A stretch of 32,108 bases of DNA from Mucilaginibacter sp. UBA4741 (GTDB taxonomy: Bacteria > Bacteroidota > Bacteroidia > Sphingobacteriales > Sphingobacteriaceae): assembly GCA_002403905.1 (NCBI GenBank), contig DHIR01000159.1:1-32108 (forward strand), written 5' to 3'. This document shows, in pieces, positions 4,662 through 27,895 of this stretch. How positions within the stretch are numbered: the first letter of the stretch is position 1; each line of letters opens with the position of its first letter. A program made the position numbers and the translations under genes. The notes under the pieces are model-generated. The model made no database searches, had not been told where the DNA came from, and was given only the letters and a program-made list of their open reading frames with translations.

Positions 4662-5885
4662 TTACTTTTTAGCGTTCTTTTCTGCTTTTATCATTTCCGT
4701 GCCAGCCATTAAAAAAGCACCTAACACATGCGGGTCATTTAACTCTTTTGGGCGCGTATAATAAAAGCCGATATCGTCCTCCATATTGGTGCCAATGCAT
4801 ACATCCTCAATTTCACCATTGGCAGTTACTTTGGTTGACAATCCTTTCCAGCCTTCGCGGGCTATGGCTAAGTACTTGGGGTTTATCCAGCCTTCGTTTA
4901 CCGCATGGGCAACGGTGTAAGTAAACATCGCGGTAACCGAGGTTTCAAGGTATGAGTCGGGTTTGTCCAATACTTGGTGCCATAAGCCGGTTTGGTCCTG
5001 GTAGCAGGCGTAACCAACTATCTGCCTTAATAACAACCTGATCAGTTCTGCCCGTTTAGGGTGATTGGCAGGCAGGTTATCCAGTAACTGGGCCTGGGCC
5101 ATCGCTATCCAGCCATTTGCCCGGCCCCAATGGGCTACGCCGTTCATTTCCACATCTGAATAATAGTTATGAAAAAACAGGCCAGTACGATCGTCATACA
5201 GATATTTATTAAAGTTTTCAACTTGTTTAATGGCATCGTCAAAGTAGCTGTTATCGCCGGTTAGTTCCCCCATACGAGCCAAAAATGGCACACTCATAAA
5301 CAGGTCATCGGCCCATATAGTGCTGCTTCGTGGTTGAGGACGGCATAGCGTCCCGTCGGGCAGGCGAAGTTGTTTGTGCGATATATATTCGGCTGCTTTA
5401 TCCAGATAGGCGCGGTATTCTTTTTTATGGGCAAGCGCGTCAACATCACAAAGCCCTGCCGACATAGCCCCGCAGGCATCCAGATTGCTCATACCAAAAT
5501 ATGCGCCATACTCGGCTTTGGGGACTTTGGCTTTGTGCTGGGCTTCAAAATAAGCCAGGTTACTGAATATAAAATCAAAGTTATGCAATGAATAGTCAGA
5601 ATATTTGGGATCATTCAGCACCGTGGCAGTTTGCATCATGCCAATGGTTAATACGCCGTTTACATACGCCCACTTGTTGTAAGTGCTTTTGGCTTTTATA
5701 TCAGCAGTTGGGGCAAGCCCCTGGGTTGATGCGTATTTTTCGCCGGTTTTGCTGTTTACAAACTGGAATGATGTGTTTTGTATCACATGATTGGCTACAC
5801 GCCGTACCAACTCTTCGGTATTGGCTGTTTGCGCGAATGTTAAACCCGGACAGGCCATCGCCAAAAAGAATAATAGTTTTTTCAT
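4662..5885 (-). CDS. GH105 unsaturated uronyl (rhamnogalacturonyl) hydrolase, secreted
   Basis: This 407-residue glycoside hydrolase has an (alpha/alpha)6 barrel of the YteR/GH88-GH105 type. Such enzymes hydrate the double bond of the 4,5-unsaturated uronic acid left at the non-reducing end by polysaccharide lyases, releasing it as a keto sugar. A signal peptide (MKKLLFFLAMACPGLTFAQ) points to the periplasm and decides the start at 5885; an upstream ATG at 5906 would give an atypical N-terminus. Family motifs are IWADDLFMSVPFL at about 191-203, where the first Asp of DD matches the catalytic Asp of YteR, and HWGRANGWIAM at about 252-262. It lies on the opposite strand from the PUL core but logically completes the degradation begun by the PL6 and PL38-type lyases. 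The exact uronate and linkage cannot be told from sequence. Confidence 0.9.
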   Translation of the reverse strand: MKKLLFFLAMACPGLTFAQTANTEELVRRVANHVIQNTSFQFVNSKTGEKYASTQGLAPTADIKAKSTYNKWAYVNGVLTIGMMQTATVLNDPKYSDYSLHNFDFIFSNLAYFEAQHKAKVPKAEYGAYFGMSNLDACGAMSAGLCDVDALAHKKEYRAYLDKAAEYISHKQLRLPDGTLCRPQPRSSTIWADDLFMSVPFLARMGELTGDNSYFDDAIKQVENFNKYLYDDRTGLFFHNYYSDVEMNGVAHWGRANGWIAMAQAQLLDNLPANHPKRAELIRLLLRQIVGYACYQDQTGLWHQVLDKPDSYLETSVTAMFTYTVAHAVNEGWINPKYLAIAREGWKGLSTKVTANGEIEDVCIGTNMEDDIGFYYTRPKELNDPHVLGAFLMAGTEMIKAEKNAKK

Positions 5886-5937
5886 ATTATGGTTATATAA
5901 TTGCATTTTTTTTAGCTGCTACCCTTATCTTTTTCAC

Positions 5938-6354
5938 CTAGGCTAGGGTAATAGGAGTGCCTTTATTTTTAAAACTATTGCGTACATTAGGTTAAGACAT
6001 CCGCAAATTCCTGGTCTTTCAAAAAAATTATAAGGTAGCATATTGTTCGGGTATGATTCGCCGTCGATCTCATACCGGCTGCATAAAACCATTTAACACC
6101 ACTTTAATCAGGCGCGTTTTATCGCCGTTAATGTATGATGTTTTACTAAGCGGTGGGTTCATATTTGGCACGCCGCAGCCATCAACATGGTGACAAAATA
6201 AGCAGTATTGCGTGTAAACTTTTTGGCCGTTTGCAATTGAATTTGCTGATACCGCCCGGGTTTTTGAATGCGCTTTAACGGCATGGTTGGTTTGGGCATA
6301 TAATTGCGACAGGCCAAATGCAAATAATAAAGCGATTGTTAGTTTAATTTTCAT
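5938..6354 (-). pseudogene. Cytochrome c domain gene with three frameshifts
   Basis: The gene starts at ATG 6354 with signal peptide MKIKLTIALLFAFGLSQLYAQ and a haem-binding CLFCHH (C51, C54, H55) followed by DGCGVPNMNPPLSKTSY, typical of the small cytochromes c found next to sugar dehydrogenases. The first frame ends at 6070 (NGFMQPV stop), but the family sequence resumes in a second frame as EIDGESYPNNMLPYN and in a third as NFLKDQEFADVLT, then, after one more shift, YVRNSFKNKGTPITLA ending at 5938. Each break is explained by one extra base: near 6072-6074, in the A7 run at 6021-6027, and near 5986-5988. In its intact form it would carry electrons in the periplasm. Three independent lesions make this a real pseudogene rather than a single sequencing error. 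Confidence 0.85.
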
Positions 6355-6482: not shown

Positions 6483-6695
6483 AAAGATATTCAACGGTTC
6501 AGCTAATTGGTACACAAAGTTAAATGTGTCCCAATACCGAAATTATCTCATTTTGGCATTCTGTTCTATCAATTAGGCTTTGTATATTATGGGTATTGCA
6601 CAAAAACCAGGTGATAATAAGATTGATAAATATGCCAACAGCGCAAAATATTAGCTAATTGTTTATAGCGTAATTACTTGCTTGTTTACCAGCGT

Positions 6696-7955
6696 ATGAT
6701 TATAAACCAAAAAAGATTAGTTTTTGTAAGTTGCAAGTTGATTTTTTCCGTTTCATGCTTTTTGTTTTTATCATTTGCACTGCCTGCAAAGGCGCAAAAA
6801 ATGATCATAGAGAGCCTTGATGGCCCGGTTACCCTAAACGAGGTAAATGCATTTAAAGCGCACATTCAAAGTGTTGATGCCCCGCCGGGCAACGGGAATG
6901 TATGGGTTTTTGGTAATGGCGGTAAAAGCATTGAGGCTTGTGGTTTAATGTACGAAGTATCGCATGACAGGGCTGTTTTAAACAGAATGATCTATTACTG
7001 TGATGAAATGCTTTCGCGCCGTAATGACCTGTGGCCTGCTGAAAAAGGCGGCCAGCACATTGTATGGACAGGCAGGATAGAGCCGGTATGGCCGTCATCC
7101 AATCCGAATGTAACACCCGCCGGCGCGGGTATTGAGCAGGGCGATGAAATAGCGCACATGAGCTATTGCGCCAAACTGATACTGCTAAACCCGGCATTAT
7201 GGAACGAGAAAGTTGATATAGGCGACACTTATCAGTTTGGTGCCACTTATAAAGAACGGGCATTAAAATATATTAAAGAAGGCGATTACGTAATTGACAA
7301 CTGGATAATACCGCATTTTATCCGCACGGCAGAAAACAATCATTACTATTTTCCCGGCCCGCCAAACACCTATAAGGCCAATGAGCCTGCCCCCTGGAAC
7401 CAGGCTTGGATGCTCACCAATGCTTTGGTAAGGTTAGTGGAATGCCATTTAATTTTAAATGACGACCCGCAACGGGTTGCCCGTTATGACGCTATAATTC
7501 AGCCTAATATTAATTGGTTCAGGGCTAATGTACACCCTCAAAAATCAGCAAAAGGGACTTTATGTTATACCTGGGCTTACGCTTTGCCGCGAGGCATCGA
7601 AGACACTAATCATGCCGCTTATGATAGCGAAGGCCTTTGGATAGCTTATGAAAGCGGCCGGTATAAATTAACGTTTGATGATATGGTGCCTTTTGCCAAT
7701 ACCTATTGCGATGTGGTAATGGGTACGGTAACCAACGGAAAATTTGCTGGCAGAGTTGACGGAACTACTGGCACCGGCCATGCCGGCGGCGATAATTATG
7801 TTCGCGATGAATATATTTACCTTGCTGAGTTCAGGCCTGATATGTTTAATGATATGGCTAATGCGGAAATAAATACAGGAAAAATTGCGGTATCAATGCC
7901 TATTACAGCAAGATTATTATGGGAAAAGGACCGGCGTTATAGAAACAAAAAGTAA
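6696..7955 (+). CDS. Secreted protein of unknown function, candidate CAZyme
   Basis: I cannot assign this 419-residue protein to a family with certainty. It starts at ATG 6696 with a long signal peptide ending near LPAKAQ and is the first gene of a four-gene operon, 7 nt before the esterase. The mature part is helix-rich, Trp/Tyr/His-rich and looks like an alpha/alpha toroid: NGNVWVFGNGGKSIEACGLMYEVSHD near the start, IVWTGRIEPVWPSSNPN in the middle, then ENNHYYFPGPPNTYKANEPAPWNQAWM and PRGIEDTNHAAYDSEGLWIAYESGRY. The conserved-looking His, Tyr, Asp and Trp residues in GIEDTNHAAYD would suit a catalytic site of a lyase, epimerase or glycosidase. Context (PL6, GH3, esterase) suggests a role in breaking down the PUL glycan. 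Function is inference. Confidence 0.75.
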   Translation: MIINQKRLVFVSCKLIFSVSCFLFLSFALPAKAQKMIIESLDGPVTLNEVNAFKAHIQSVDAPPGNGNVWVFGNGGKSIEACGLMYEVSHDRAVLNRMIYYCDEMLSRRNDLWPAEKGGQHIVWTGRIEPVWPSSNPNVTPAGAGIEQGDEIAHMSYCAKLILLNPALWNEKVDIGDTYQFGATYKERALKYIKEGDYVIDNWIIPHFIRTAENNHYYFPGPPNTYKANEPAPWNQAWMLTNALVRLVECHLILNDDPQRVARYDAIIQPNINWFRANVHPQKSAKGTLCYTWAYALPRGIEDTNHAAYDSEGLWIAYESGRYKLTFDDMVPFANTYCDVVMGTVTNGKFAGRVDGTTGTGHAGGDNYVRDEYIYLAEFRPDMFNDMANAEINTGKIAVSMPITARLLWEKDRRYRNKK

Positions 7956-7962
7956 TATCTAT

Positions 7963-9156
7963 ATGAAAAAGACACTCTTTATTATATTATGCCTTTCTAC
8001 TGTGATAGCGAAGGCCCAGATCAAGGGTACACTATGGGATGTAAAGGGCATTTATGATATCCCCCAATATAAAACCGTAAGCGCCGACTCGGCCATTGGT
8101 ATTATTTACAGAGGGTTGACGTATAAAGGTAAGGCCCAAAATGTTTTTGCCTATTATGCAACGCCCGGTACATTAAGTGGCGACCGCAGTAAAGATAAAA
8201 ACCTGCCAATGGTAATATTGGTACACGGCGGCGGCGGGACAGCTTTTAAAGAATGGGCTATAATGTGGGCGAAAAAGGGGTACGCGGCCTTGTCAATGGA
8301 CCTGCGCGGCAACGGCCCCGGTAAAAAGCATATTGATGGCGGCTTTGATGAAGATAATGCTCAAACACCTTATTTTACCATAACACCCGGCATTAATGAA
8401 CAATGGATGTTCCAGGCAGTAGCAGATGTAATATTGGCTAATAACATGGTACGTAGTTTCCCCGAAGTTGACGTGAACCGTACGGCAATTACGGGTATTA
8501 GCTGGGGGGGTATTATCACCTGCATCATGACAGGTGTTGACGAGCGGTATAAAGTGGCCGTGCCAGTATATGGTTGTGGTTATTTGCTGCAAGGCAGTTC
8601 AATGCGAAAGGGTTTGTTGCAGTTGAATGAGCACGACAGGAAAACCTGGGTAAAACAATATGACCCGTCAAACTACATCGGTAAAACTAAAATGCCCATG
8701 TTGTTTTTAGACGGCGCTAATGACCCGCATTTTTACCTGGATAGTTACGCTAAAACATACAGGCTTGTAAAAGATAAAAACCTGTGTATCAAAATAGGTT
8801 TAAAACACAACCATCATTATGGCTGGGCAAATGACGAAATATTTGCTTTTATCAATAGCTACCTTAATAAAACTACACCTTTAGCTATAATTGGCGAACC
8901 TGAACTTAAAGGCAATACTATTACAGCCAAAGTAAGATCGGTAATACCAGTTAGAAATGCCTTTTTAAATTTTACCAGGGATACTACCCGCGTGTTAATG
9001 AACAGAAAATGGGAATCGGTAGCGGCAACATTTGATAAAGACCATATCAACGCGCCCGCCCCTCCACCGGGAAGTACCATCTGGTACCTCTCATTAACTG
9101 ATGATAAAGGCTTGCAGGTTTCGGGCCCATTACAATTTATTGAACCCAAATTATGA
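7963..9156 (+). CDS. Secreted alpha/beta-hydrolase, acetyl-xylan-esterase/dienelactone-hydrolase type
   Basis: This 397-residue protein has a signal peptide (MKKTLFIILCLSTVIAKAQ), which fixes the start at 7963 rather than further upstream inside the previous gene. The alpha/beta-hydrolase core shows the oxyanion region ILVHGGGGTAF, the nucleophile elbow GISWGG with Ser at about residue 180, an acid in FLDGANDPHF (about Asp254) and a His cluster KHNHHYGW (about 282-285) for the triad. The C-terminal ~110 residues form a beta-rich extra domain. The likely role is removal of acetyl or other acyl esters from the glycan in the periplasm so that the neighbouring lyase and glycosidases can act. A peptidase-like S9/S15 activity cannot be excluded. 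It is co-transcribed with its neighbours (7-nt and 33-nt gaps). Confidence 0.8.
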   Translation: MKKTLFIILCLSTVIAKAQIKGTLWDVKGIYDIPQYKTVSADSAIGIIYRGLTYKGKAQNVFAYYATPGTLSGDRSKDKNLPMVILVHGGGGTAFKEWAIMWAKKGYAALSMDLRGNGPGKKHIDGGFDEDNAQTPYFTITPGINEQWMFQAVADVILANNMVRSFPEVDVNRTAITGISWGGIITCIMTGVDERYKVAVPVYGCGYLLQGSSMRKGLLQLNEHDRKTWVKQYDPSNYIGKTKMPMLFLDGANDPHFYLDSYAKTYRLVKDKNLCIKIGLKHNHHYGWANDEIFAFINSYLNKTTPLAIIGEPELKGNTITAKVRSVIPVRNAFLNFTRDTTRVLMNRKWESVAATFDKDHINAPAPPPGSTIWYLSLTDDKGLQVSGPLQFIEPKL

Positions 9157-9189
9157 TCTATATAAATGTTTCAACTGATAACATATAAA

Positions 9190-11598
9190 ATGAAGTTAAC
9201 TACCGGCATTTGTGCCTTATTGTTAGTGCTGGCAACCACCCAAACTTTCGCGCAGCAAAAAAGTATTTACCACAAGGGGTGGATAGATTTTAACAAGAAC
9301 GGAAAAATGGACGTTTTTGAGGACCCCACGCAACCCATTAACGCCCGTATTGCCGACCTGCTTTCGCAGATGACCGTTGACGAAAAAACCTGCCAAACGG
9401 CAACTCTTTACGGCTATGGCCGGGTATTGAAAGACGAAATGCCCACCCCCGAATGGAAAACTGAAATATGGAAGGACGGCATAGCCAATATTGATGAAGA
9501 ACTGAACAGCCTGGCTTATAACCCCAAAGCCACCAGTAAATATTCATTCCCCTATAGCCGCCATGCCGAAGCTATTAATACCGTACAAAAATGGTTTGTT
9601 GAAGAAACCCGTTTAGGTATCCCTGTTGATTTTACCAACGAAGGCATACACGGTTTAAATCATGACCGTGCCACGCCGTTCCCGGCACCCATTGGTATTG
9701 GCAGTACCTGGGATAAAGCTTTGGTAAGGCACGCAGGCGATATTGTGGGCAGGGAAGCAAAAGCATTAGGCTATACCAATGTTTATACACCCATTTTAGA
9801 CCTTGCCCGCGACCCACGCTGGGGCCGTGTGGTTGAAAGTTATGGCGAAGACCCGTTTTTGGTTGCCGAACTTGGTAAGCAAATGGTATTGGGTGTGCAG
9901 GAGCAGGGCGTGGCTTCAACCTTAAAACATTTCGCGGTATATAGCGTACCTAAAGGTGGCCGCGATGGGAACGCGCGTACCGACCCGCATGTGGCGCCGC
10001 GCGAGCTTTATGATATGTATTTATATCCTTTTAGAAGGGTTATACAGGAAGCACATGCTATGGGTGTAATGAGCAGCTATAACGATTGGGATGGCGAGCC
10101 TATAACCGGGAGCTATTATTTTTTAACCGAACTGCTGCGTCAAAAATTTGGGTTTACGGGTTATGTCGTGTCTGATAGTGGTGCGGTTGAATTTTTATAT
10201 AGTAAACATCTTGTAGCTACTGATATGAAAGACGCGGTAAGACAGGCATTTGAAGCCGGGTTGAATGTGCACACAAATTTTACGCCTCCGCAAACCTTTA
10301 TTTTGCCCCTGCGCGAGCTGGTAAATGAAGGTAAAATTTCGATGAAAACACTTGACTCGCGGGTAGCTGATGTATTGCGTGTAAAGTTTGAACTGGGCCT
10401 GTTTAACGAACCTTATGTAAAAGACCCAAAGGCGGCCGACCAGATCGTATTTAACCATGATGCGGTTGAATTTACTAAACAAATATCTCGCGAGGAATTG
10501 GTGCTGCTTAAAAATGCCAACAACGCTTTGCCGGTTAACCGGGCAAACATCAGGAAGATATTGGTTACAGGCCCGATGGCTGCAGAAACAAACCATTCAA
10601 TAAGCCGCTATGGCCCGTCAAACGTGCATATCGTATCGGTACTGGAAGGGATGAAAGCGGTTGCCGGCAAAAACATCGAGGTAAATTATGTAAAGGGATG
10701 TGATGTAGTGGATAAAAACTGGCCCGAAAGCGAGATACTGCCCGAACCACTGGATGAGCAGGAAAAAAGCCGGATCGACTCGGCTGTAGCGGCAGCAAAA
10801 AAATCAGATATGGTTGTTGTAGCATTGGGCGAAACTGAAAAAATGGTTGGCGAAAGTAAATCGACCACCAATTTAAACTTGGCAGGCAGGCAATTGCAAT
10901 TATTGCAGGCATTACAGGCTACGGGCAAACCCATAGTGTTGGTTTTGATAAATGGAAGGCCGTTAACCATTAACTGGGCCAATAAATATGTACCGGCTAT
11001 TTTTGAAGCATGGTTTCCTGGGGCCCAGGGCGGCACAGCCATTGCCGAAGCCATATTTGGCGATTATAACCCCGGCGGTAAACTAACCATGACTTTCCCC
11101 AAAAGCGTGGGGCAGGTTGAGTATAATTTTCCGTTTAAACCGGCTTCGCAAGTAGGCCAGTCGGGCAAAGGGCCAAATGGAAGCGGTAGTACTTTAATTA
11201 CAGGTTCGCTATATCCATTTGGTTATGGGTTAAGTTACACTACTTTTCAATACAGCAATTTAAATATTACTCCCGAAATACAGCACACGCAAGGCGATAT
11301 ACAGGTTAATGTAGATGTGAAAAATACCGGGAAAGTTAAGGGTGATGAAATTGTTCAGCTTTATTTGAAGGATATGGTAAGCAGCGTAACCACTTACGAT
11401 ACACAGTTACGAGGTTTTGAACGTGTTACGCTGGAGCCAGGTGAAACCAAAACGGTTAAGTTTACGCTCCATCCCGATGATCTTTCGCTGCTTGATAAAA
11501 ACAGGAAATGGGTTGTTGAGCCCGGCGCTTTTGAAATACGTATGGGCAGCTCATCCGAAGATATACGGGTTAAAAAACAGTTTACTATTATCCAATAA
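9190..11598 (+). CDS. GH3 beta-glycosidase, secreted
   Basis: This 802-residue glycosidase has the full Bacteroidetes GH3 layout. A signal peptide ends near QTFAQ, so ATG 9190 is preferred over the in-frame ATG at 9166. After it come the TIM-barrel domain, with RIADLLSQMTVDEK, DLARDPRWGRVVESYGEDP and the nucleophile in GYVVSDSGA (Asp at about 329), the alpha/beta sandwich domain with PIVLVLINGRPL and AWFPGAQGGTAIAEAIFGDYNPGGKL, and a C-terminal fibronectin-III-like domain after YPFGYGLSYT. The family includes beta-glucosidases, beta-xylosidases and related enzymes; sequence alone does not fix the sugar. Within the operon it would trim non-reducing beta-linked residues from oligosaccharides in the periplasm. 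Confidence 0.93.
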   Translation: MKLTTGICALLLVLATTQTFAQQKSIYHKGWIDFNKNGKMDVFEDPTQPINARIADLLSQMTVDEKTCQTATLYGYGRVLKDEMPTPEWKTEIWKDGIANIDEELNSLAYNPKATSKYSFPYSRHAEAINTVQKWFVEETRLGIPVDFTNEGIHGLNHDRATPFPAPIGIGSTWDKALVRHAGDIVGREAKALGYTNVYTPILDLARDPRWGRVVESYGEDPFLVAELGKQMVLGVQEQGVASTLKHFAVYSVPKGGRDGNARTDPHVAPRELYDMYLYPFRRVIQEAHAMGVMSSYNDWDGEPITGSYYFLTELLRQKFGFTGYVVSDSGAVEFLYSKHLVATDMKDAVRQAFEAGLNVHTNFTPPQTFILPLRELVNEGKISMKTLDSRVADVLRVKFELGLFNEPYVKDPKAADQIVFNHDAVEFTKQISREELVLLKNANNALPVNRANIRKILVTGPMAAETNHSISRYGPSNVHIVSVLEGMKAVAGKNIEVNYVKGCDVVDKNWPESEILPEPLDEQEKSRIDSAVAAAKKSDMVVVALGETEKMVGESKSTTNLNLAGRQLQLLQALQATGKPIVLVLINGRPLTINWANKYVPAIFEAWFPGAQGGTAIAEAIFGDYNPGGKLTMTFPKSVGQVEYNFPFKPASQVGQSGKGPNGSGSTLITGSLYPFGYGLSYTTFQYSNLNITPEIQHTQGDIQVNVDVKNTGKVKGDEIVQLYLKDMVSSVTTYDTQLRGFERVTLEPGETKTVKFTLHPDDLSLLDKNRKWVVEPGAFEIRMGSSSEDIRVKKQFTIIQ

Positions 11599-11641: not shown

Positions 11642-13000
11642 ATGATTGAGATGAACATACAAAATGCTAAAAAATGGGGCTTATTATTGTTGCTTGTATT
11701 GTTTTGGCAGATGCCACTTTTTGCAGACAGTATTAAAGTTACATCAATAGAAGCGCTTCAAAAGGCTATTAATAATGCCAGGCCCGGCGACGTGATCATA
11801 CTGGCAAACGGCACCTACACCACTACCGAAGATATTAGGGTTGACAGAAAAGGTGCACCCGGTAAGCCAATTACCATTTGCGCCGAAACCATTGGCGGGG
11901 CCGAAATTTCGGGACTTGGTGGGTTTGATTTGGTTAAACCGGCGGCTTATATTATTATCAAAGGCTTTAAGTTTACCCATAGATCGTCAAGAGCTAAAAC
12001 TGCCGGAGGCACGCGTTTTTGCCGGTGGACACAAAATATTTTTGAAAACACAGGCGATGGCGAGGATCTTACTATTGCCGGTAGCGACCATGAGATAGAT
12101 TATAATACTTTTCAAAATAAAAATGCAATGGGGCGGTTCCTGGCAATTCGTGGTACAGGCAGCCAGATAGCGGAGCGTTTGCACATCCATCACAATTACT
12201 TTAATAATTATGTAAGCCAGGGCGGCAAAAACGGCGCCGAAACATTACAGTTTGGATTAAGCGGCTTTAGCTTATCATCAAGCAACAGCGTGGTTGAATA
12301 CAATTTATTTGAGCACTGCGCCGGTGAGAATGAGCTGATATCTGTTAAAGCCTCAGCGGTAACGCTCAGGTATAATACCATCCGCGATTGCCCGGCGCAG
12401 TTTACGCTGCGGCACGGCAACAAAAGCAAGGTGTATAACAACTATTTCATTAACACACCTGGGTTGCGCATTTTTGGTGATGACCATTTGGTAAGCAGCA
12501 ATTATTTTGAAAACTGCAAACCGGCCATTTTTATAGGCAACGGTGATGGCGAAGTGGCAGACGGAGCCCGGCTTACGGTGCATGACAGGCCCGATAGGGT
12601 AGTTATTATTTATAACACGCTGGTTAATAATCGGCAAAACTTTGTGATGACCGCGCGCAAAAACGGCCTGGGGGCAACTTATACCACCTTTGCCAACAAT
12701 ATTATACAGGGCGGGGGCCCGGCAGCGGTAATAGCGGGACCTTATCCAGGTGCAAAGTGGGAAGGTAATATTTTATTCAATGTAATGGATGCAGGCAGTA
12801 TGCCATCAGATGGTTATACCACCGCCGACCCCAAATTAATGAAAACCAAGTGGGGTTACTATGTGGGCGGCAATAACCCCGCCGTTAAAAATAGCAAATT
12901 CTACTATCCAAATGTAAGGGCTGATTTAGACGATCACGGCCCCGTTGCAAATTATGTATTAACTCCTGAAGATGTAGGCTATAACGCTATTAAAAAATAG
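11642..13000 (+). CDS. PL6 polysaccharide lyase (alginate lyase / chondroitinase B family)
   Basis: This 452-residue protein has a signal peptide (ending near PLFAD) and a right-handed parallel beta-helix. Matches to PL6 are IEALQKAINNARPGDVIILANGTY near the N-terminus, NGAETLQFG at about 197-205, and the two catalytic regions ELISVKASA (Lys236, Bronsted base) and FTLRHGN (Arg257, acid). The 21-residue Lys-Arg spacing equals that of chondroitinase B (K250/R271). PL6 enzymes cleave uronic-acid polysaccharides by beta-elimination; characterised members act on alginate or dermatan. The product would carry the unsaturated uronyl end that GH105 removes. ATG 11651 (MNIQNAK) is an equally good start. 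It is the last gene of the first PUL operon, 43 nt after GH3 and directly before a strong terminator. Confidence 0.92.
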   Translation: MIEMNIQNAKKWGLLLLLVLFWQMPLFADSIKVTSIEALQKAINNARPGDVIILANGTYTTTEDIRVDRKGAPGKPITICAETIGGAEISGLGGFDLVKPAAYIIIKGFKFTHRSSRAKTAGGTRFCRWTQNIFENTGDGEDLTIAGSDHEIDYNTFQNKNAMGRFLAIRGTGSQIAERLHIHHNYFNNYVSQGGKNGAETLQFGLSGFSLSSSNSVVEYNLFEHCAGENELISVKASAVTLRYNTIRDCPAQFTLRHGNKSKVYNNYFINTPGLRIFGDDHLVSSNYFENCKPAIFIGNGDGEVADGARLTVHDRPDRVVIIYNTLVNNRQNFVMTARKNGLGATYTTFANNIIQGGGPAAVIAGPYPGAKWEGNILFNVMDAGSMPSDGYTTADPKLMKTKWGYYVGGNNPAVKNSKFYYPNVRADLDDHGPVANYVLTPEDVGYNAIKK

Positions 13001-16486: not shown

Positions 16487-16520
16487 AAAAAAGAAAGACA
16501 TGATTTTTAAAAAGAAAAAA

Positions 16521-18179: not shown

Positions 18180-18881
18180 ATGAAAAAAATCAAATATCAT
18201 ACAGCAATACTTTTTGTATTCCTGGCACTGGCAGTAGTTGTGCTGCCGGGTTGCCTTAAACTTAAACTGCAAAAGAATTTTCACAGGAGTACCACCGATA
18301 CAATCGACGCGCATTTAAATAAAACCTCGTGGCAATATTTAAAATCGCGCGCTTATGGCAGCTCAACTGATACCATTTTCAGGAGGATGTACGATGCCAT
18401 TATTTACTCGGGTATTGATACCAATTTGTATATGCAAAGCAATAAAACATATATATTTTTCACCAATACAATGGTAACCACCTCAAAAACAGGATTGTGG
18501 GCAGCTGTGTTAACTTCGGCAAACAAAGCAGCAACAAGCTGGAAAAGCTATTCGCCGGCCGATGTGAAAAATTACCTCGGATATTTGATCCTTAACGGCA
18601 CCTACTCACATTATAATTTGCCTGTACATGATGTAACGGTAACTACAAATGCAGCAGCAGGGGCGTATACCACAAATCCTCCGGGATTTAAAATACCCGG
18701 CTTTATCACAAATCCAAATTCAACCATGTATATCGAGGTGCTAGACGCGTCGCCGAGCAATACATCAAATTACCCAATTACGGTTAATGATGTTTATTAT
18801 ATTGCTACCAGCGACCTGTTAGCCACAAATGCCGTGGTTGATGTTATTGGCACACCTATATACCCTATTTTGCCCTATTAA
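18180..18881 (+). CDS. Fasciclin-like surface lipoprotein in SusE/F position
   Basis: This 233-residue lipoprotein has a lipobox LPGC (Cys25) when translated from ATG 18180; an ATG at 18111 would add an unlikely 23-residue hydrophilic leader. The mature part resembles a FAS1 (fasciclin) domain: KTYIFFTNTMVTT, VKNYLGYLILNGTYS, and the end block ITVNDVYYIATSDLLATNAVVDVIGTPIYPILPY, which matches the FAS1 H2 region (ATN-V-HVID). FAS1 domains mediate adhesion, and in Sphingobacteriaceae PULs such lipoproteins often follow SusD. I infer it acts as an accessory glycan-binding or complex-stabilising protein at the cell surface. It ends just before a terminator and so closes the SusCD operon. Confidence 0.75.
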   Translation: MKKIKYHTAILFVFLALAVVVLPGCLKLKLQKNFHRSTTDTIDAHLNKTSWQYLKSRAYGSSTDTIFRRMYDAIIYSGIDTNLYMQSNKTYIFFTNTMVTTSKTGLWAAVLTSANKAATSWKSYSPADVKNYLGYLILNGTYSHYNLPVHDVTVTTNAAAGAYTTNPPGFKIPGFITNPNSTMYIEVLDASPSNTSNYPITVNDVYYIATSDLLATNAVVDVIGTPIYPILPY

Positions 18882-19049: not shown

Positions 19050-21614
19050 ATGAATTTACGCAGATACCTGGTTGTTTGTTTAATAGGCAGTTCAGCTGCT
19101 TTTGGCCAAACCAAAAGCAACGACCCCGATTTAAAGCTATGGTACAATAAACCGGCTGTAGCCTGGCAGGAGGCTTTGCCCTTAGGTAACGGCATTACAG
19201 GGACCATGGTTTTTGGCAGGGTTGGCAAAGAGCGGTTTCAGTTGAATGACCATACGCTATGGTCTGGCTATCCTGATGACGGCAATAATGCTAAAGGGCC
19301 TGAATACTTACCACTGGTACGGCAGGCTATATTTGCCGGCGACTATACCAAGGCCGCCGCGCTTTGGAAAAAAGGGTTACAGGGCCCTTACTCCGCGCGT
19401 TATTTGCCGTTGGGCGATTTAATACTTGATTTTAAATTAAAAGATACTTCGGCGAATAATTATTACCGTGACCTTGACCTCAACAACGCGATAGCTACTG
19501 TGAAATACAAAGCGGATGGCGTTAATTATACCCGCGAAACATTTATCAGTTACCCAGGCCGTGTTATGGTTATCAGGATAAAAGCTGATCAAAAAAATGC
19601 CGTAAGCTTTAGTGCAAGCTTGTCAAGCAAACTGCATTTTAATGTGGCAACCAAAGGGAACAATCAATTGGTATTAAAGGGCAAAGCCCCAAAATATGTA
19701 GCCAACCGCGATTATGAGCCCCAACAAGTGGTTTACGATGGGCCAAACGGCGAAGGGATGAATTTTCAGATAGACCTGGAAGTTAAAAACTCTGGCGGTA
19801 CAGTTAAAGCAAATGATAGCAGTGTTGAAGTTTCGGGAGCCGATGAGGTTACCTTGTATTTAACGGAGGCCACCAGCTTTAATGGTTTTGATAAATCGCC
19901 GGGTTTACAGGGGAAAGACCCTTCGGTTGAGGCAGATGCCGGTTTAAATAAAGCATTAACCTTAAACTATGGGCAGCTTAGATCAGCCCACGTTGCTGAT
20001 TATCAAAACCTGTTTAAAAGGGTAACCTTTGATTTAGGTGCCAATGCCGCGATGCTGAGGCAACCTACCGATGAACGTTTAAAAAACTTCGACAGCAAAA
20101 ATCCCGACAGGCAATTGCAAACGCTATATTACCAGTACGGGCGTTATTTGCTTATTGCCAGTTCCAGGCCCGGTACGCCGCCGGCAAATCTGCAAGGTAT
20201 ATGGAATGATGCCTTACAACCGCCCTGGGGCAGTAACTATACCACCAATATTAATACAGAAATGAATTACTGGCTGGCGGAGAACACCAACCTGTCTGAA
20301 TGCCACCAGCCTTTGTTCGATTTCATAAAAGAACTTTCAGTTAACGGTGCCAAAACCGCTAAAATAAACTATAACATCAACGAGGGTTGGGTTGAACACC
20401 ATAACTCTGATATATGGGCCAAAACTTCTACCGTAGGCAATTATGACAAGGACCCCAAAGTAAGTACCCGTTATTCGGCATGGCCTATGGGCGGGGCGTG
20501 GTTAAGCACTCATTTATTTGAACATTATTTGTTCACGGGCGATAAGGCGTTTTTGAGTCAAACGGGCTATCCTTTAATGAAAGGCGCTGCTCTTTTTATG
20601 CTCCATTGGTTAATTAAGGATCCCAAAACGGGCTACCTTATCACAAATCCGGGCGTATCGCCAGAAAACACGGTTAAAAAAGATGGAAAAGAATATGAGA
20701 TCAGTATGGCTACTACCATGGATATGTCTATCATCCGCGAGCTATTTAACAACTGCATATCATCAGCACAGGTATTAGGTATTGATAAGGATTTTGTTGG
20801 AAGGCTGCAAACCGCCGAAGCTAACCTATACCCATTGCATATAGGGCAATACGGGCAGTTACAGGAATGGTTTGAAGATTGGGACGACCCGAAGGATACG
20901 CATAGGCATATTTCACAATTATTTGGCCTGTTTCCGGGCAAGTTTATCACTGTTGATGGTACGCCCGAACTGGCCGCTGCGGCAAAACAATCAATGATAT
21001 TTCGTGGCGATGTAAGTACCGGTTGGTCAATGGCCTGGAAGGTAAACTGGTGGTCGCGCTTGCATGATGGCAACCATGCTTATAAAATACTGGCATCCGC
21101 GTTTACCTATATCGACCCATTAAAAGAAAAGGCGACAATGAGCGGTGGCGGTACCTACCCTAATTTATTTGACGCGCATCCGCCATTCCAGATCGACGGC
21201 AACTTCGGCGGTTCGGCCGGGATGACCGAAATGTTGCTGCAAAGCCATACTGGTTCAATTGAGCTACTGCCCGCCCTGCCTGATGCCTGGCCAACCGGAA
21301 ATATCAGCGGTATTAAAGCACGGGGAAATTTTGAGGTTGACATTAGCTGGAAGAATAGTAAGCTTACTAAAGCGATTATTTTATCAAATAATGGCGGCAA
21401 TTGCAGGGTAAGCAGCAATTTGCCAATTAAGGTTTTAGAAACAGCTTTTAAACCTGCCGTAGGCAACAATACCAATCCTTTAAACCAGGCCGAGCCAAAA
21501 CCGGCTTATGAGAAAAAGGATGGTGTGAAACTGGCCAGTTTATACGTACAAAAACAATATACTATTGATTTTGCTACAGAAAAAGGCAAAACCTACACTA
21601 TTATCCCCCAATAA
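19050..21614 (+). CDS. GH95 alpha-L-fucosidase (or alpha-L-galactosidase), secreted
   Basis: This 854-residue inverting glycosidase has a signal peptide (ending near AAFGQ). The N-terminal beta-sandwich starts with [16 protein letters not shown] and [12 protein letters not shown]. The (alpha/alpha)6 catalytic barrel holds the family residues: NINTEMNYW with Asn400 and Asn402, SPEN with Glu539 (general acid) and QIDGNFGG with Asp716, matching N421, N423, E566 and D766 of the bifidobacterial 1,2-alpha-fucosidase. Known GH95 enzymes act on alpha-1,2-linked L-fucose or, in some Bacteroides enzymes, L-galactose. It begins the third PUL operon and would remove terminal fucose-type caps from the glycan in the periplasm before other enzymes act. 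Confidence 0.94.
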
Positions 21615-21626
21615 AATTCTACGGGT

Positions 21627-22607
21627 ATGAAGCGTTATATTCTCCTCTTGTTCATGCTGTTAAGCATTGGTGTTAAAGCCCAGGAAAGAGCTGCCTGGTT
21701 AAAACAGGCAAAATTTGGTGTAATGACGCATTACCTGCCCGACTGGCTTTCAAAAACCGAGAATTTAAATATCAACGTTGCAAAATGGAACCAACTGGTT
21801 AATGCCTTTGATGTAAATAGGCTTGCCGATGAGGTAAAGTCTGTCAGTGCCGGGTACATGATATTTACCATAGGGCAAAACTCGGGTTTTTATGACTCGC
21901 CCAACGCCGCTTATGATAAGTTGGTTGGCATTAAACCCACTAAATGTTCAAAAAGGGATTTAATAGCCGACCTGGGTACCGCTTTACATAGCCGTGGGCT
22001 AAAACTGATAGTTTATCTGCCGTCGGGAGCCCCCAACGGCGACGCCATAGCTAAGAAGGCATTGGAATGGCAAAACGGCCCGTATCCCAATAAAGAATTT
22101 CAAAACAAGTGGGAACAAATCATCAGGGAATGGTCGGTTCGCTGGGGAGGTAAAATTGATGGCTGGTGGTTTGACGGCTGCTACTGGCCCAATATCATGT
22201 ACCGTACAGAAAACGCGCCAAATTTTAAAACTTTTGCCGAAGCGGCAAGAGCTGGCAATCCCAACAGTATAGTGGCGTTTAACATGGGTGTATTTTACCG
22301 TTTAACCAGTAGCACACCTTACGAGGATTATATAGCTGGCGAAATTAATAAGGATGACCTGGTAACAATAAATCATTCATATAATGGCAAAATAGATGGA
22401 GCGCAAATACACGGGTTAAGCAACCTGGGCGAAAAATGGGGGATGGGTAACCCGCGCTTTACTATTGAGCAAATAATAGGGTATACCAAAAAGATAAACG
22501 ATGCCGGGGGCGCTATGACCTGGGACGCACCTATCCAAAGCAATGGTTTAATATACCCGGCATTTATAATTCAATTAGATGCCATTGGTAAATCTATTCA
22601 TCAATAA
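21627..22607 (+). CDS. Compact GH29-like (alpha-L-fucosidase-related) secreted protein
   Basis: This 326-residue protein has a signal peptide (ending near GVKAQ) and a single TIM barrel related to GH29. Recognisable pieces are AAWLKQAKFGVMTHYLPDW (the FGMFIHWG region of GH29, changed to FGVMTHYL) and DGWWFDGCYW, where Asp183 occupies the position of the GH29 catalytic nucleophile (usually WFDG or WFDT). The usual KHHDGF motif is absent; IGQNSGFYDSP stands in its place. It lacks the C-terminal beta-sandwich of normal fucosidases and is much shorter than the ~450-630 residues usual for GH29. It lies in the GH95 operon (12-nt gap). It may be a divergent fucosidase, an enzyme with another specificity, or a non-catalytic relative. 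Confidence 0.8.
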   Translation: MKRYILLLFMLLSIGVKAQERAAWLKQAKFGVMTHYLPDWLSKTENLNINVAKWNQLVNAFDVNRLADEVKSVSAGYMIFTIGQNSGFYDSPNAAYDKLVGIKPTKCSKRDLIADLGTALHSRGLKLIVYLPSGAPNGDAIAKKALEWQNGPYPNKEFQNKWEQIIREWSVRWGGKIDGWWFDGCYWPNIMYRTENAPNFKTFAEAARAGNPNSIVAFNMGVFYRLTSSTPYEDYIAGEINKDDLVTINHSYNGKIDGAQIHGLSNLGEKWGMGNPRFTIEQIIGYTKKINDAGGAMTWDAPIQSNGLIYPAFIIQLDAIGKSIHQ

Positions 22608-22638: not shown

Positions 22639-24792
22639 ATGTCACTATCTAAATATTCAATACTCTGCTGCCTGTTGGTTATTATTACCTGTAAATTAAA
22701 CGCCCAGCAATTAGCTTGGACGGAAGTTGAGCCCGGCATTTGGAAAGCTGTGGCTGGCAAACCTGAAGCATTTGACCTGCTTAAAGCTGCGGGTGCAATA
22801 CCCTACCATGCAGGTTTAGTGCAAATGGGCGATACGAGTTTCCCGTTGTCGAAAACTGAAATTACAGCAACTATGGTTGATGGTAAAACCTATCTCTGTT
22901 TCCCGTTAGACCGTACCGAACAGCTTTATGGTTTTGGCCTAAATTTTCAAACAGTACACCAGCGCGGCAGGATAATGACCCTGCACGTTGATAATTATGC
23001 CGGGAAAGATGATGGGCATACCCATTGCCCCACGCCTTTTTATGTATCATCAAAAGGCTATGGCGTTTTTATTAACTGTGCCCGCTATATTAAAGTTTAT
23101 GCAGGTACAGCGGTGCGGGTTAACAGCAAAACCCCTCCTGTAGTACAAGATAGAAACACAGATAAAAACTGGAACTCGCACCCCTACTCTGACGCGGTGG
23201 AAATGCTTGTACCGGCTGAGGGCGCCGAGATATATGTATTTGGCGGCCCTACAATGATGGACGCGGTGCGGCGGTACAACTTATTAAACGGCGGCGGGTG
23301 CCTGCCGCCACGCTGGGGGCTTGGCTTTACACAACGTATGCAGCGTTTAACTGATGCTGCGGGTGTTGCCGCAGAAGCCGAGGCATTTGAAGAAAAAGGG
23401 TACCCGCTTGATTTTATAGGGTTAGAGCCCGGCTGGCAAAGCAAATCATACCCATGTACATTTGAATGGGACAAAACTCGTTTCCCTGACCCGAAAGCGT
23501 TGATCAGGGATATGTTAAAAAAAGGTATCCGCATTAATTTATGGACGAACCCTTATGTATCTCCCGAAGCGCCTGTTTTTCCTTTAATAAAACCCTATGC
23601 AGCATCATATACGGTTTGGAACGGCGCGGTGGTTGATATCAGTATGCCCGAAGCTCAAAAAATATTCTTCGGTGCGCTGTCAAAAAACAAAGTGGATATT
23701 GGCGTAAGTGGCTATAAAATAGATGAGGTTGATGGCGGCGATACCTATTTATGGCCCGATGTTGCCATATTCCCATCTGGGCATAGCGCCGAGCAGATGC
23801 GGCAAACCTACGGATTGATGATGCAGCGTTATGTTACCGAACTTTACCACGAACGTAACCAACGCACGTATGGTTTGGTACGTGCTTCTAACGGTGGAGG
23901 AGCTTCTTTCCCCTATGTTATTTATAACGATTATTATAACCACCGGGACTTTATAACGGCCCTCATTAACAGCGGTTTTGCAGGCGTATTGTGGACGCCC
24001 GAAGTAAGAGCTTCAAAAACAGCCGAAGAATGGTTGCGGAGGTTCCAGTCGAATGTTTTTTCGCCTATGGCTATGATCAATGCCTGGGCAAGCGGCACCA
24101 AACCGTGGACCTTCCCCGAAGTAGCAGAGCAGGTAAAACAAATGGCAAACCTGCGTATGCAAATGATGCCTTATTGGTACAGCGAGTTTGCTAAATGTCA
24201 TTTCCAGGGCATCCCGCCGTTTAGGGCTATGAACCTGGAACCGGATTTTGCAGGGATGGAAGTGCCTAAAAAAGCTCCCAAAAAGAAAGTTGATCTGGAA
24301 ACAGACCCTTATGAAGACCTGTCAGCCGGTGAAATAAAAGACCAGTACATGGCGGGCGAAAATATTTTGGTTGCGCCCATGTTCACCGGCGAAACATCGC
24401 GTACAGTAATTTTGCCCAAAGGCAAATGGTATGATTTTTACACCGGCAAACTGGTGGGAGACGGACAAATGATAACTGTTACGCCCGGACTGGATAAAAT
24501 ACCGGTTTATGTAAAAGATGGGGGTATTATCCCGATGATGCCGGCCATGTTGCACGCCCCTAAAGCAGGCCAGAAGGTTGATATTGAAGTACGGTACTAT
24601 GGCGAAAAACCAGGAAGCTACAAGCTGTATGATGATGACGGTGAAACTTTTAATTATGAAAAAGGTGAATATACTTTTAGGGATATTAAAGTTGAGAAAG
24701 TAAATGGTAAAATTGTAGGAAATATTAGCGATGCGATAGCTGGAAAACCCAATACGGTTGGTAAAGTAACTTTTAAAATGATGACCGATTAA
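22639..24792 (+). CDS. GH31 alpha-glycosidase, secreted, with divergent active site
   Basis: This 717-residue protein has a signal peptide (ending near LNAQ) and the GH31 plan: an N-terminal beta-sandwich with QLYGFGLNFQ, a TIM barrel with CLPPRWGLGFTQR and GLEPGWQSK, the nucleophile in SGYKIDEVDGGD (Asp362), and a C-terminal beta domain with GKWYDFYTGKLV and IPVYVKDGGIIPMMP. GH31 includes alpha-glucosidases, alpha-xylosidases, alpha-galactosidases and others. The usual W-S-G-D acid/base segment reads VIYNDYYNHRDF (Asp431 the likely acid), and the DIGGF segment that normally follows reads LWTPEVRAS, so specificity is probably not that of a common alpha-glucosidase. It lies between the GH29-like and lyase genes (31-nt and 11-nt gaps) and acts in the periplasm. 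Confidence 0.9.
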   Translation: MSLSKYSILCCLLVIITCKLNAQQLAWTEVEPGIWKAVAGKPEAFDLLKAAGAIPYHAGLVQMGDTSFPLSKTEITATMVDGKTYLCFPLDRTEQLYGFGLNFQTVHQRGRIMTLHVDNYAGKDDGHTHCPTPFYVSSKGYGVFINCARYIKVYAGTAVRVNSKTPPVVQDRNTDKNWNSHPYSDAVEMLVPAEGAEIYVFGGPTMMDAVRRYNLLNGGGCLPPRWGLGFTQRMQRLTDAAGVAAEAEAFEEKGYPLDFIGLEPGWQSKSYPCTFEWDKTRFPDPKALIRDMLKKGIRINLWTNPYVSPEAPVFPLIKPYAASYTVWNGAVVDISMPEAQKIFFGALSKNKVDIGVSGYKIDEVDGGDTYLWPDVAIFPSGHSAEQMRQTYGLMMQRYVTELYHERNQRTYGLVRASNGGGASFPYVIYNDYYNHRDFITALINSGFAGVLWTPEVRASKTAEEWLRRFQSNVFSPMAMINAWASGTKPWTFPEVAEQVKQMANLRMQMMPYWYSEFAKCHFQGIPPFRAMNLEPDFAGMEVPKKAPKKKVDLETDPYEDLSAGEIKDQYMAGENILVAPMFTGETSRTVILPKGKWYDFYTGKLVGDGQMITVTPGLDKIPVYVKDGGIIPMMPAMLHAPKAGQKVDIEVRYYGEKPGSYKLYDDDGETFNYEKGEYTFRDIKVEKVNGKIVGNISDAIAGKPNTVGKVTFKMMTD

Positions 24793-24803
24793 AATTGAAA
24801 ACA

Positions 24804-25991
24804 ATGATTATAAAAAGATTTTTGATTTGCCTGTTGCTAATGGTTGCTGTTATTACCTGTATGAACTGTGCCCTGCAAACAAGCTCGCCTGAGTTTAAAC
24901 AGGAAATAATAGCAACCCTGCGCAAAAGCGTAATGGATGAGGCAGCCTGGGCCATGCAACAGCAGCCCATAACCGTTACCGCTCAAACCTACAGCCGCAG
25001 CGCCGGGGGGAAGCATGATTTTTTTTCAGAAGGTGATTATTGGTGGCCCAATCCTAAAAATCCCAATGGCCCGTACATACAAAAAGACGGCCTCACCAAC
25101 CCCGATAATTTTGTAGCGCACCGTTTGGCCATGATCCGCTTTAGCCGCATTATAGGCGCGTTATCATCGGCATATAAGCTTACGCATAATGCCAAATATG
25201 TTAAACAGGCTATCATTCACCTGCGGGCCTGGTTTATCAGCCCTGAAACTTTAATGAACCCCAACCTGCAATACGCGCAGGCGCTAAAAGGCATCACAAC
25301 CGGCAGGGGTATTGGCATTATTGATACCATACAACTCATGGAAGTGGCACAGGGCCTAATGGTGATGGAGAATGACCCTGCAATGGATAAAACTTTGTTA
25401 AAAGGTGTGCGTGATTGGTTTTGCCAATACTTAGTTTGGTTAAATACCAGCAAAAACGGGTTGGAAGAAAAGGCCGCTAAAAATAACCACGGTACCTGCT
25501 GGGTAATGCAGGTTGCCTGTTTTGCACGGTTTACGCATAATAAGGTGCTGACAGATACCTGCCTTAACCATTATAAAAACATCCTGTTGCCTAACCAAAT
25601 GGCCACCGATGGCAGCTTCCCACTTGAGCTAAAACGCACCAAACCCTTTGGTTATTCGATATTTGACCTTGATGCCATGACAACACTTTGCCAGATATTA
25701 TCAACATCCGAAAATAATTTATGGGAATATAAAACAGCCGATGGCCGCTCCATAAAAACGGGGATTTCATACCTGTACCCTTACCTTGCCGATAAAAATA
25801 AATGGCCGTTTGCGCATGACGTAATGTATTGGGACAACTGGTCGATAGCACAGCCTTCGCTAGTTTTTGGAGCTGTGGCTTATAATAACAAAGAATGGCT
25901 AAACACGTGGAAACGCCTTGACCATAACCCTAAAGTAGAAGAAGTGATCAGGAATTTGCCGGTAAGGCACCCATTGATATGGATAAATTAA
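24804..25991 (+). CDS. Alginate_lyase-fold polysaccharide lyase, PL38-like
   Basis: This 395-residue protein has an (alpha/alpha) toroid of the alginate_lyase domain type and most resembles PL38, whose members cleave glucuronan or alginate. Key segments are the N-terminal DFFSEGDYWWPNPKNPNGPY, FVAHRLAMIRFSRIIGALSSAYKLT, the central GITTGRGIGIIDTIQL, the catalytic-looking KNNHGTCW (Asn227, Asn228, His229) and ELKRTKPFGYSIFDLDAM with a conserved Tyr. A hydrophobic leader (MIIKRFLICLLLMVAVITC) sends it across the inner membrane; two Cys follow but neither has a clean lipobox. The frame opens at a TTG at 24795, but ATG 24804 is preferred. Beta-elimination by this enzyme would create the unsaturated uronyl ends that GH105 uses. 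It ends 2 nt before the GH29 gene. Confidence 0.85.
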   Translation: MIIKRFLICLLLMVAVITCMNCALQTSSPEFKQEIIATLRKSVMDEAAWAMQQQPITVTAQTYSRSAGGKHDFFSEGDYWWPNPKNPNGPYIQKDGLTNPDNFVAHRLAMIRFSRIIGALSSAYKLTHNAKYVKQAIIHLRAWFISPETLMNPNLQYAQALKGITTGRGIGIIDTIQLMEVAQGLMVMENDPAMDKTLLKGVRDWFCQYLVWLNTSKNGLEEKAAKNNHGTCWVMQVACFARFTHNKVLTDTCLNHYKNILLPNQMATDGSFPLELKRTKPFGYSIFDLDAMTTLCQILSTSENNLWEYKTADGRSIKTGISYLYPYLADKNKWPFAHDVMYWDNWSIAQPSLVFGAVAYNNKEWLNTWKRLDHNPKVEEVIRNLPVRHPLIWIN

Positions 25992-25993
25992 AT

Positions 25994-27895
25994 ATGATGA
26001 AAGCGAGAAGAATTTTTGTAATAACAGGCTATTTATTAGCCATATTATTAAGCGCCGGTGTAACCTTTGCACAGGATAAGGGCGATGAGGATAAAACAAT
26101 GGCAAACGAGGTGAAGAGCCGCGATAAAACAGCCATTGATGAAGCTGTAAACGGGTGGTGGACAGCCAGCATGAAAACACATGATGCCCGTATAGCGTGG
26201 TGGCGTGACGCGCGTTTTGGCATGTTTATTCATTGGGGCATTTATTCGTTGCCCGGCGGCGAATGGAAAGGTAAAAAGGTGGATGGTTATGCCGAACACT
26301 TGATGCGTAAAGAAAAAATACCCCGTGCAGAATACTTGGAATTGGCCCATCAGTTTGACCCGGTAAAGTTTGACGCCGATAAATGGGTAAAAACAGCCAA
26401 ACAGGCCGGTATGCGCTATTTGATCATCACCGCAAAGCACCATGACGGCTTTGCCATGTATAATTCTAAGGTTTCTGATTATAATATAGTTAAACAAACA
26501 GCCTGGAAGCACGACCCCATGGCTGACCTTTCGGCAGCTTGTAAAAAGTATGGATTGAAGTTTGGGTTTTATTATTCACAAGCTTTTGACTGGGAACACC
26601 CCGACGCACCGGGCAATGACTGGGATTATAAAAACCCGGGAGGCGACCTTAACCTGTATGGCGGGCGCGATTGGTACGACATTCACCCCGAATTGCTGCC
26701 TAAAGCTGTAAAGTATGTTAATGAAAAAGCTATACCGCAGATAAAAGAATTGCTGACCATGTACCACCCTGATATTTTATGGTTTGATACTCCGCAAAAA
26801 CTACCGCTGTCTGAAAATATCCGCATCCTTAAAGCTATCCGCGAAACCGACCCTAATGTTGTGGTGAACGGCAGGTTGGCCCGTGGCGCCAATAACTTTA
26901 ACATGGGCGATTACAAAAATACTGCAGACCGACCGGCTGAGTTTTTTCCGGTAGATGGCGATTGGGAGGCTATACCTACTACCAACGAATCTTATGGTTA
27001 TTCAAAATTTGACAAGAGCTATAAACCCGTAAGTTTTTTTATTCAGTTGCTGGCTAAATCAGCTTCGCGTGGTGGTAATTTGCTCATGAATATTGGCCCT
27101 ATGGGCGATGGTGAATTTGCCCCGGAGGACGTAAATATTTTAAACGGGCTGGCCAAATGGATGAATAAAAACTCGGAAAGTATTTATAAAACCACCAAAA
27201 CGCCGCTACCTTTTCAAAGCTGGGGCGTATCTACGTGCAAGGGCAACCTTTTATACCTGCACGTATTTAACTGGCCGCAAAATGGTAACCTTATAGTTGG
27301 CGGATTGAAAAGTGATATTAGCAAAGCGTACCTGTTAGCCGACCCAACCAAAAAAGCACTAACATTTAAACGCGTTGACCCGCTGGATATGGGCATCAAC
27401 CTTCCTTTGCAAGCGCCTGATGAGGTAAATACGATTATTGTTTTGGAAACCAAAGGCACTATTGAAACAGATACTACCCGTTTGCTCGCCAGCAGCGGTG
27501 TTACCAACCGTCTGCTTGCGTTTGACGCTGAGCTTATAGGTAAGGGTTTTGGTTTTGGCGATGGCAAGACTGATAGGTATTATGTGAATGGGTGGAGTAA
27601 AAAGAATCAGTTCGTCAAATGGAATTTTAGGCTGATACAGCCCGCTACTTATAAAATAGTATTAAAATATTTGGCTGATAAGGATGACGCGGGCAGTTAC
27701 GAATTTAAAGTAGGCAGCCTGGTTAAAAAAGGTGAGGTGCTATCATCAGCAAAGGGCGAAGTTAAAACCGTTGACTTGGGCGATGTCAGCCTACCGTCAG
27801 GAACGCATCTCCTGCAAATTAGCCCGGTTGAAATAACAAAAAGCGCGTTAATGAAAATCCTGGAAGTTCAGTTAATACCCATAGTGGCTAAGTAG
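25994..27895 (+). CDS. GH29 alpha-L-fucosidase with C-terminal accessory domain, secreted
   Basis: This 633-residue retaining fucosidase has a signal peptide (ending near GVTFAQ). The TIM barrel shows [12 protein letters not shown] at about 74-85, the substrate-binding AKHHDGFAMY at about 147-156, and the nucleophile in DILWFDTP (Asp265). A beta-sandwich follows, with RGGNLLMNIGPMGDGEF. The last ~140 residues (from about GFGFGDGKTDRYY) are beta-rich and resemble a carbohydrate-binding or jelly-roll module, not present in minimal GH29 enzymes. ATG 25994 is chosen, 2 nt after the lyase stop; ATG 25979 would overlap the lyase end. It is the final gene of the third PUL operon and would remove alpha-linked fucose from the lyase products. 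Confidence 0.93.
   Translation: MMKARRIFVITGYLLAILLSAGVTFAQDKGDEDKTMANEVKSRDKTAIDEAVNGWWTASMKTHDARIAWWRDARFGMFIHWGIYSLPGGEWKGKKVDGYAEHLMRKEKIPRAEYLELAHQFDPVKFDADKWVKTAKQAGMRYLIITAKHHDGFAMYNSKVSDYNIVKQTAWKHDPMADLSAACKKYGLKFGFYYSQAFDWEHPDAPGNDWDYKNPGGDLNLYGGRDWYDIHPELLPKAVKYVNEKAIPQIKELLTMYHPDILWFDTPQKLPLSENIRILKAIRETDPNVVVNGRLARGANNFNMGDYKNTADRPAEFFPVDGDWEAIPTTNESYGYSKFDKSYKPVSFFIQLLAKSASRGGNLLMNIGPMGDGEFAPEDVNILNGLAKWMNKNSESIYKTTKTPLPFQSWGVSTCKGNLLYLHVFNWPQNGNLIVGGLKSDISKAYLLADPTKKALTFKRVDPLDMGINLPLQAPDEVNTIIVLETKGTIETDTTRLLASSGVTNRLLAFDAELIGKGFGFGDGKTDRYYVNGWSKKNQFVKWNFRLIQPATYKIVLKYLADKDDAGSYEFKVGSLVKKGEVLSSAKGEVKTVDLGDVSLPSGTHLLQISPVEITKSALMKILEVQLIPIVAK

Follow-up and report, generated by a model that had tools for sequence, protein, structure and literature searches.

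What polysaccharide would a soil-type bacterium take apart with a gene cluster that sets two uronate lyases beside several fucosidase-type enzymes? This question is raised by positions 4,662 to 27,895 of a 32,108-nucleotide stretch of Mucilaginibacter sp. UBA4741 (contig DHIR01000159.1), the whole of which is referred to here as the window. The source genome is a draft of 4.07 Mb in 299 contigs with a completeness of 80%, and the nearest named relatives of the locus are Mucilaginibacter. A SusC-type transporter and a SusD-type lipoprotein adjoin at 13346-18083 among carbohydrate-active enzymes (CAZymes), and the cluster is therefore a polysaccharide utilization locus (PUL). We favor, with moderate confidence, the reading that it is a variant of a PUL type that recurs in Sphingobacteriaceae and targets a uronate-rich heteropolysaccharide, most likely built on 4-linked glucuronic acid (GlcA) and carrying L-fucose (or L-galactose), α-D-galactosyl-fucose branches, and acyl groups.

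An initial annotation of this DNA had named GH105, an esterase, GH3, PL6, GH95, GH29-type proteins, GH31 and a PL38-like lyase, and profile searches of the 19 window open reading frames (ORFs) of at least 170 amino acids found all of these families in place (Table 1). Eight window proteins were also compared by sequence with PDB structures, and the matches agree with the family calls for seven, the exception being the protein at 6678-7955. This (α/α)6 protein, the FAS1 lipoprotein at 18111-18881, and the subtype of the GH31 were absent from that annotation.

Recurrence of the locus

Most of the window set recurs in three further Mucilaginibacter records, G079 (L018/L019, Mucilaginibacter sp. 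L196), G024 (L020/L021, M. rivuli; names inferred) and L004, in a similar though not identical order and with protein identities of 58-88%, and the set is therefore more than a chance grouping. The G079 locus lacks GH3, GH95 and PL38 and has a GH2 in place of the window GH95; PL38 is missing from G024 too, along with the esterase and the short GH29-like gene, and L004 lacks GH3 and PL6, its record stopping inside GH95. GH105 lies on the same strand as the remaining genes in these sister loci, unlike in the window.

Of 400 genomes of the order, 91 contain the GH31 type, at 94 places in all, and 40 of these places were picked for spread and read. Five further GH31 loci (the window's own and those of G079, G024, G050 and G034) were read as well, along with all 13 other places of the window PL6 type and all 19 other genomes with PL38. 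Tallies are of BLAST best matches at E 1e-10 among ORFs of at least 180 amino acids, with an identity floor of 40% except for PL6, PL38, GH88, GH105 and GH2. Within about 20 kb, GH95 is present in 24 of the 40 GH31 neighborhoods, any fucosidase-type gene in 26, a GH88 of the L010 type in 19, PL38 in 16, PL6 (mostly a distant type) in 14, and GH2 in 12. The gene that follows GH31 is PL38 in 16 of the 40 and SusC in 10, and the 16 neighborhoods with PL38 next contain a fucosidase-type gene in 15 cases, a GH88/105-type gene in 15, GH2 in 10 and PL6 in nine. The fullest order, in L070, reads SusC-SusD-FAS1-GH2-GH95-GH29s-GH31-PL38-GH29-GH88-PL6-GH27-GH29. These tallies, the placement of PL38 next to GH31 and the L070 order establish a recurrent collinear core, of which the window is a reduced, rearranged version.

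The initial annotation had regarded the combination as singular, and this part of its interpretation fell: PL38, the GH31 α-galactosidase, fucosidases and GH88/105 recur together across GH31 neighborhoods. The kind of target that it proposed, with uronate, fucose and acyl groups, stood. In full-text literature searches, with PULDB outside their scope, no described PUL of this content was met, which is not proof of absence. A differently composed locus that has the α-galactosidase in common occurs in L095-L099, where GH31 and GH105 are followed by SusC/SusD, a FAS1-like gene and a distant PL6, with no fucosidase-type or PL38 genes.

The GH31 enzyme and probable fucose-directed activities

PsGal31A from Pedobacter saltans (Pedsa_3617, PDB 4XPO) is an α-galactosidase that was captured with fucose at +1, and five of its residues have been named as specificity determinants (PMC9491548). 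The window GH31 matches it at 1122 bits and is identical to it at each of the five positions (W486, Y274, E366, R418, and Y432, the numbering of paper and chain being shifted by one), which places the enzyme in the PsGal31A type. The bond addressed by the window GH31 is thus implied to be α-galactose on fucose, which would tie this enzyme to GH95 and the GH29s, and α-galactose is likely to stand beside fucose in the substrate. The L-fucose (or L-galactose) side groups that had been proposed from GH95 and the GH29s are upheld at the level of families by both profiles and PDB matches. Members of GH95 can be α-L-galactosidases. In the PDB comparison, the short GH29-like protein also weakly resembles α-1,4-endofucoidanase structures.

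Lyases and the identity of the uronate

The proposed uronic-acid backbone drew on PL6, the PL38-like lyase and GH105, and here too the families are confirmed, with conserved site residues in both lyases. In PL6, N197, E229, E231, K236 and R257 are conserved in 29 aligned sequences and spaced as in the AlyGC site, and homology together with Ca-ligand and catalytic Lys/Arg positions at this spacing assigns the protein to the family. By this correspondence, the residues would be the Ca ligands and catalytic residues of the enzyme; AlyGC R241 is named in the title of a PDB entry among the PL6 matches. The PL38-like lyase is assigned by homology to PL38 lyases and by its conserved N-N-H, Arg and Tyr: N230, N231, H232, R281 and Y287 are each present in at least 97% of 43 sequences. 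These are presumably the catalytic residues, and its PDB matches 3nfv and 8bdq are presumably PL38 entries.

Among characterized PL38 enzymes are two β-1,4-glucuronan lyases, CUL-I and TpPL38A (PMC13027841, in excerpt), which by structure matches belong to the same lyase family as the window protein, a likeness at the family level only. The GH2 of the G079 locus matches PDB 6d7j, named β-glucuronidase, at 1170 bits, and a GH2 with 37-67% identity to it lies in the ∼20-kb stretch of 14 of the 19 PL38 loci across the phylum. The GH2 and PL38 context favors, without proving, GlcA as the uronate. A comparable logic of lyase, GH105 and GH2 is seen in human-gut PULs with PL17, GH30_4, GH105 and GH2 (PMC5966431, in excerpt); here GH2 is found in the sister loci, while the gut PULs use another lyase family and, as described in that excerpt, their set does not include GH95, GH29 or a PsGal31A-type GH31. 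A protein of the lyase family PF14099 is encoded in one sister locus and has homologues in three more, with no match in the 80%-complete genome of the window itself.

Among 301 genomes of the family, 14 carry the window PL6 type. It is shared by a second PUL type (L046/L047, L050/L051, L052/L053) that contains SusC/D, a FAS1-like protein, a GH28-like protein (27% identity), PL6, a beta-helix protein and GH29.

A proposed order of action

From gene presence, conservation, co-localization and site residues, all seen directly, we infer the substrate along with an order of action and a localization for the enzymes. Judged by family, the esterase would take off acyl groups, as expected for the acylated polymer proposed earlier, with which the confirmed AXE1-type esterase agrees. 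PL38 and PL6 would break 4-linked uronosyl bonds by β-elimination, SusD and the FAS1 lipoprotein would bind the products, and SusC would bring in oligosaccharides. GH31 would strip α-galactose from fucose, followed by removal of fucose-type residues by GH95 and the GH29s. GH105 would free the unsaturated uronate that the lyases leave, and GH3 and the (α/α)6 protein may handle the remaining linkages.

Several observations weigh against this reading. PL38 is absent from the two closest sister loci, G079 and G024. At identities of at least 40%, no fucosidase-type gene is found in 14 of the 40 GH31 neighborhoods or in 17 of the 19 phylum-wide PL38 loci, and PL38 itself is therefore not tied to fucose. 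The pairing of the window PL6 type with PL38 is not general, because PL38 is nearby in only two of its 13 other loci (G050, 79%; G123, 63%); L108 also pairs PL6 (67%) with PL38 (68%). Elsewhere, the PL6 genes next to PL38 or GH31 are mostly of a distant type (26-32%). The scanned window ORFs include no GH2, the 13 GH2-like matches in the source genome do not exceed 33% identity, and several sister loci carry GH28-type genes. GH28 usually acts on galacturonic acid (GalA). PL6 finds its best PDB matches among alginate lyases, and the characterized PL38 set takes in alginate and glycosaminoglycan lyases too (PMC13027841 and PMC11790493, both in excerpt), a figure legend in the latter describing another PL38 assayed on glycosaminoglycans; the uronate is therefore not fixed. 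Finally, L-fucose isomerase (PF07881) has no match in the same 80%-complete genome, in which a KduI-type gene (PF04962) is present.

Candidate and alternative substrates

The best composition match that we met is the glycuronan or exopolysaccharide of Mucoromycota, a fit by composition only. A Mucor glycuronan has Fuc:Man:Gal:GlcA of 5:1:1:6, and Mucorales exopolysaccharide is essentially β-1,4-GlcA with 9-25% fucose and 4-13% galactose (PMC6433966, in excerpt); Umbelopsis walls reach 25% fucose (PMC10481521, in excerpt). Mucoran consists of α-GlcA-(1→3)-Man repeats (PMC6433966, same excerpt) and would therefore need other enzymes. Mannosidase families have no match among the scanned window ORFs, though Mucorales polymers hold mannose, a further point against the proposed substrate. 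We raise as a tentative idea, and a rather doubtful one, that this cluster, together with its relatives, forms a widespread and so far undescribed system for digesting fucosylated, galactosylated glucuronan of Mucoromycota walls or exopolysaccharide, including a new CAZyme family (6678-7955). The terms Mucor, PL38, fucosid- and glucuron- are all absent from the available portion of a study of PULs on Hyaloscypha necromass (PMC11497827).

A bacterial exopolysaccharide akin to colanic acid or to fucose-rich capsules (fucose, galactose, GlcA or GalA, acetyl), as the initial annotation suggested, is an unlikely target when taken as a specific source. It overlaps with the favored reading, in which the source may be bacterial, algal, plant or fungal, and the likelihoods given to the two do not add to one. 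The gene set would suit fucose, galactose, uronate and acyl groups, but the composition of such polymers is general background here, and their uronates are often not 4-linked.

Slightly less likely again is an acidic polysaccharide of plant type or resembling pectin, containing GalA with fucose or L-galactose, such as a mucilage or a rhamnogalacturonan-like polymer, for which the lyases would be adapted to 4-linked GalA. Pfam identifies GH28 in the sister loci G024 and L008, and BLAST matches to these proteins are found in G071, G022, G329, G246, G086, G297 and G034 (26-65% identity) as well as in six of the 40 GH31 neighborhoods. Known substrates of GH105 relatives include pectic products, and the α-L-galactosidase activity known in GH95 would also suit. 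However, GH28, GH78, GH106 and pectate or rhamnogalacturonan lyases are all unmatched in the scanned window ORFs, and the sister GH2 is nearest to a β-glucuronidase.

Least probable is an alginate locus with extra glycosidases. Alginate would then be the substrate of both PL6 and PL38, and the fucosidases would either act on fucoidan found alongside it in algal debris or belong to a neighboring system. The PL38 matches, like those of PL6, bear the alginate lyase name, and the alginate locus of Bacteroides ovatus CP926 combines PL6, PL17 and PL38 (PMC11381880, in excerpt). Against this, the 19 scanned window ORFs yield no PF07940 or PL17 match, 15 of the 16 PL38-bearing GH31 neighborhoods include a fucosidase-type gene, and the G079 GH2 is close to a β-glucuronidase. 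The CP926 locus, as excerpted, shares SusC/SusD, PL6 and PL38 with the window, which differs in having no PL17 match and in adding fucosidases, the α-galactosidase, GH105 and GH3. Nor do the scanned ORFs inside 4662-27895 include a sulfatase, as a fucoidan PUL would, and the earlier view that this is neither a standard alginate nor a fucoidan locus holds.

The FAS1 lipoprotein and the (α/α)6 protein

The FAS1 lipoprotein probably starts at Met24, and its Cys48 is invariant in 53 aligned sequences. Foldseek finds FAS1 domains (best E 4.6e-06) with its structure model (pLDDT, the predicted local distance difference test, 82.7), and the protein is likely a surface glycan-binding protein. The protein at 6678-7955 has no match to solved structures by sequence comparison with the PDB; it belongs to an unassigned (α/α)6 family with 123 homologues and is likely a carbohydrate enzyme. 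A second copy of this family in the source genome (L022, 4794-6053, 76% identity) lies on a 23.8-kb contig with nothing matching the window SusC/SusD and with neighboring ORF sizes like those of L005, compared by length only. Beside the sister PULs, proteins of 539, 545, 993 and 689 amino acids (L018, 8772-12067; L020, 9049-12030; L055, 9152-11221) have no Pfam match and are possible further CAZymes.

Layout of the window

On the + strand, the order is (α/α)6 protein, esterase, GH3, PL6, SusC, SusD, FAS1 lipoprotein, GH95, short GH29-like protein, GH31, PL38-like lyase and GH29, with GH105 directly upstream on the opposite strand.

Table 1. Features of the window, with coordinates, strand and supporting matches
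Feature	Position	Strand	Evidence and remarks
GH105/GH88-type unsaturated uronyl hydrolase	4662..5906	-	PF07470 271.9 bits; PDB GH105 relatives, best 3k11 207 bits
(α/α)6-barrel protein of unassigned family	6678..7955	+	ORF from TTG; true start may be later
AXE1-type carbohydrate esterase	7885..9156 (ORF start; true start probably later)	+	PF05448 58.4 bits, cut-off 21
GH3 β-glycosidase	9166..11598	+	PF00933 204, PF01915 181, PF14310 91 bits
Short PL6-type lyase	11642..13000	+	PF14592 135.8 bits; PDB PL6 lyases
SusC-type TonB-dependent transporter	13346..16486	+	TIGR04056 789 bits, cut-off 368
SusD-type glycan-binding lipoprotein	16476..18083	+	PF07980 125 bits
FAS1-fold lipoprotein	18111..18881	+	Alignment of 53 sequences; structure model; Foldseek FAS1 domains
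GH95 α-L-fucosidase/α-L-galactosidase	19050..21614	+	PF22124 600 bits; PDB 2rdy 770 bits
Short GH29-like protein	21627..22607	+	PF01120 38.8 bits; PDB 9pnj 52 bits, 6dns 31.6 bits
GH31 α-galactosidase, PsGal31A type	22639..24792	+	4xpo 1122 bits; GH31 profile 152 bits
PL38-like polysaccharide lyase	24795..25991 (ORF from TTG)	+	PF05426 301 bits; 3nfv 220, 8bdq 151 bits
Full-length GH29 α-L-fucosidase with C-terminal extension	25979..27895	+	PF01120 275.6 bits; 9rzy 278 bits
Remnant of further GH29	31296..32039	+	tblastn residues 1-248 of 474, 84% identity

Outside the PUL, a sulfatase (1025-2825, - strand) is divided between two overlapping reading frames, which match consecutive PF00884 pieces (1-192 and 200-300); the gene is therefore interrupted or reflects an assembly error. 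An MG2/carboxypeptidase-regulatory-like protein of 939 amino acids (28175-30994, - strand) adjoins the PUL and is present in G079 at 77% identity. The GH29 remnant close to the contig end has an internal TGA and a later TAA, with its second half gone and, by eye, a hairpin-like sequence on its 3′ side; the gene is complete in G079 and G024 (474-475 amino acids).

Significance

If the favored reading is true, the window represents a recurrent PUL type of soil bacteria for a uronate polymer with galactosyl-fucose branches, and it gives an enzyme order open to test as well as an unassigned (α/α)6 family. Should the polymer prove to be a Mucoromycota polyuronide, the locus would open a view of bacterial turnover of zygomycete biomass.

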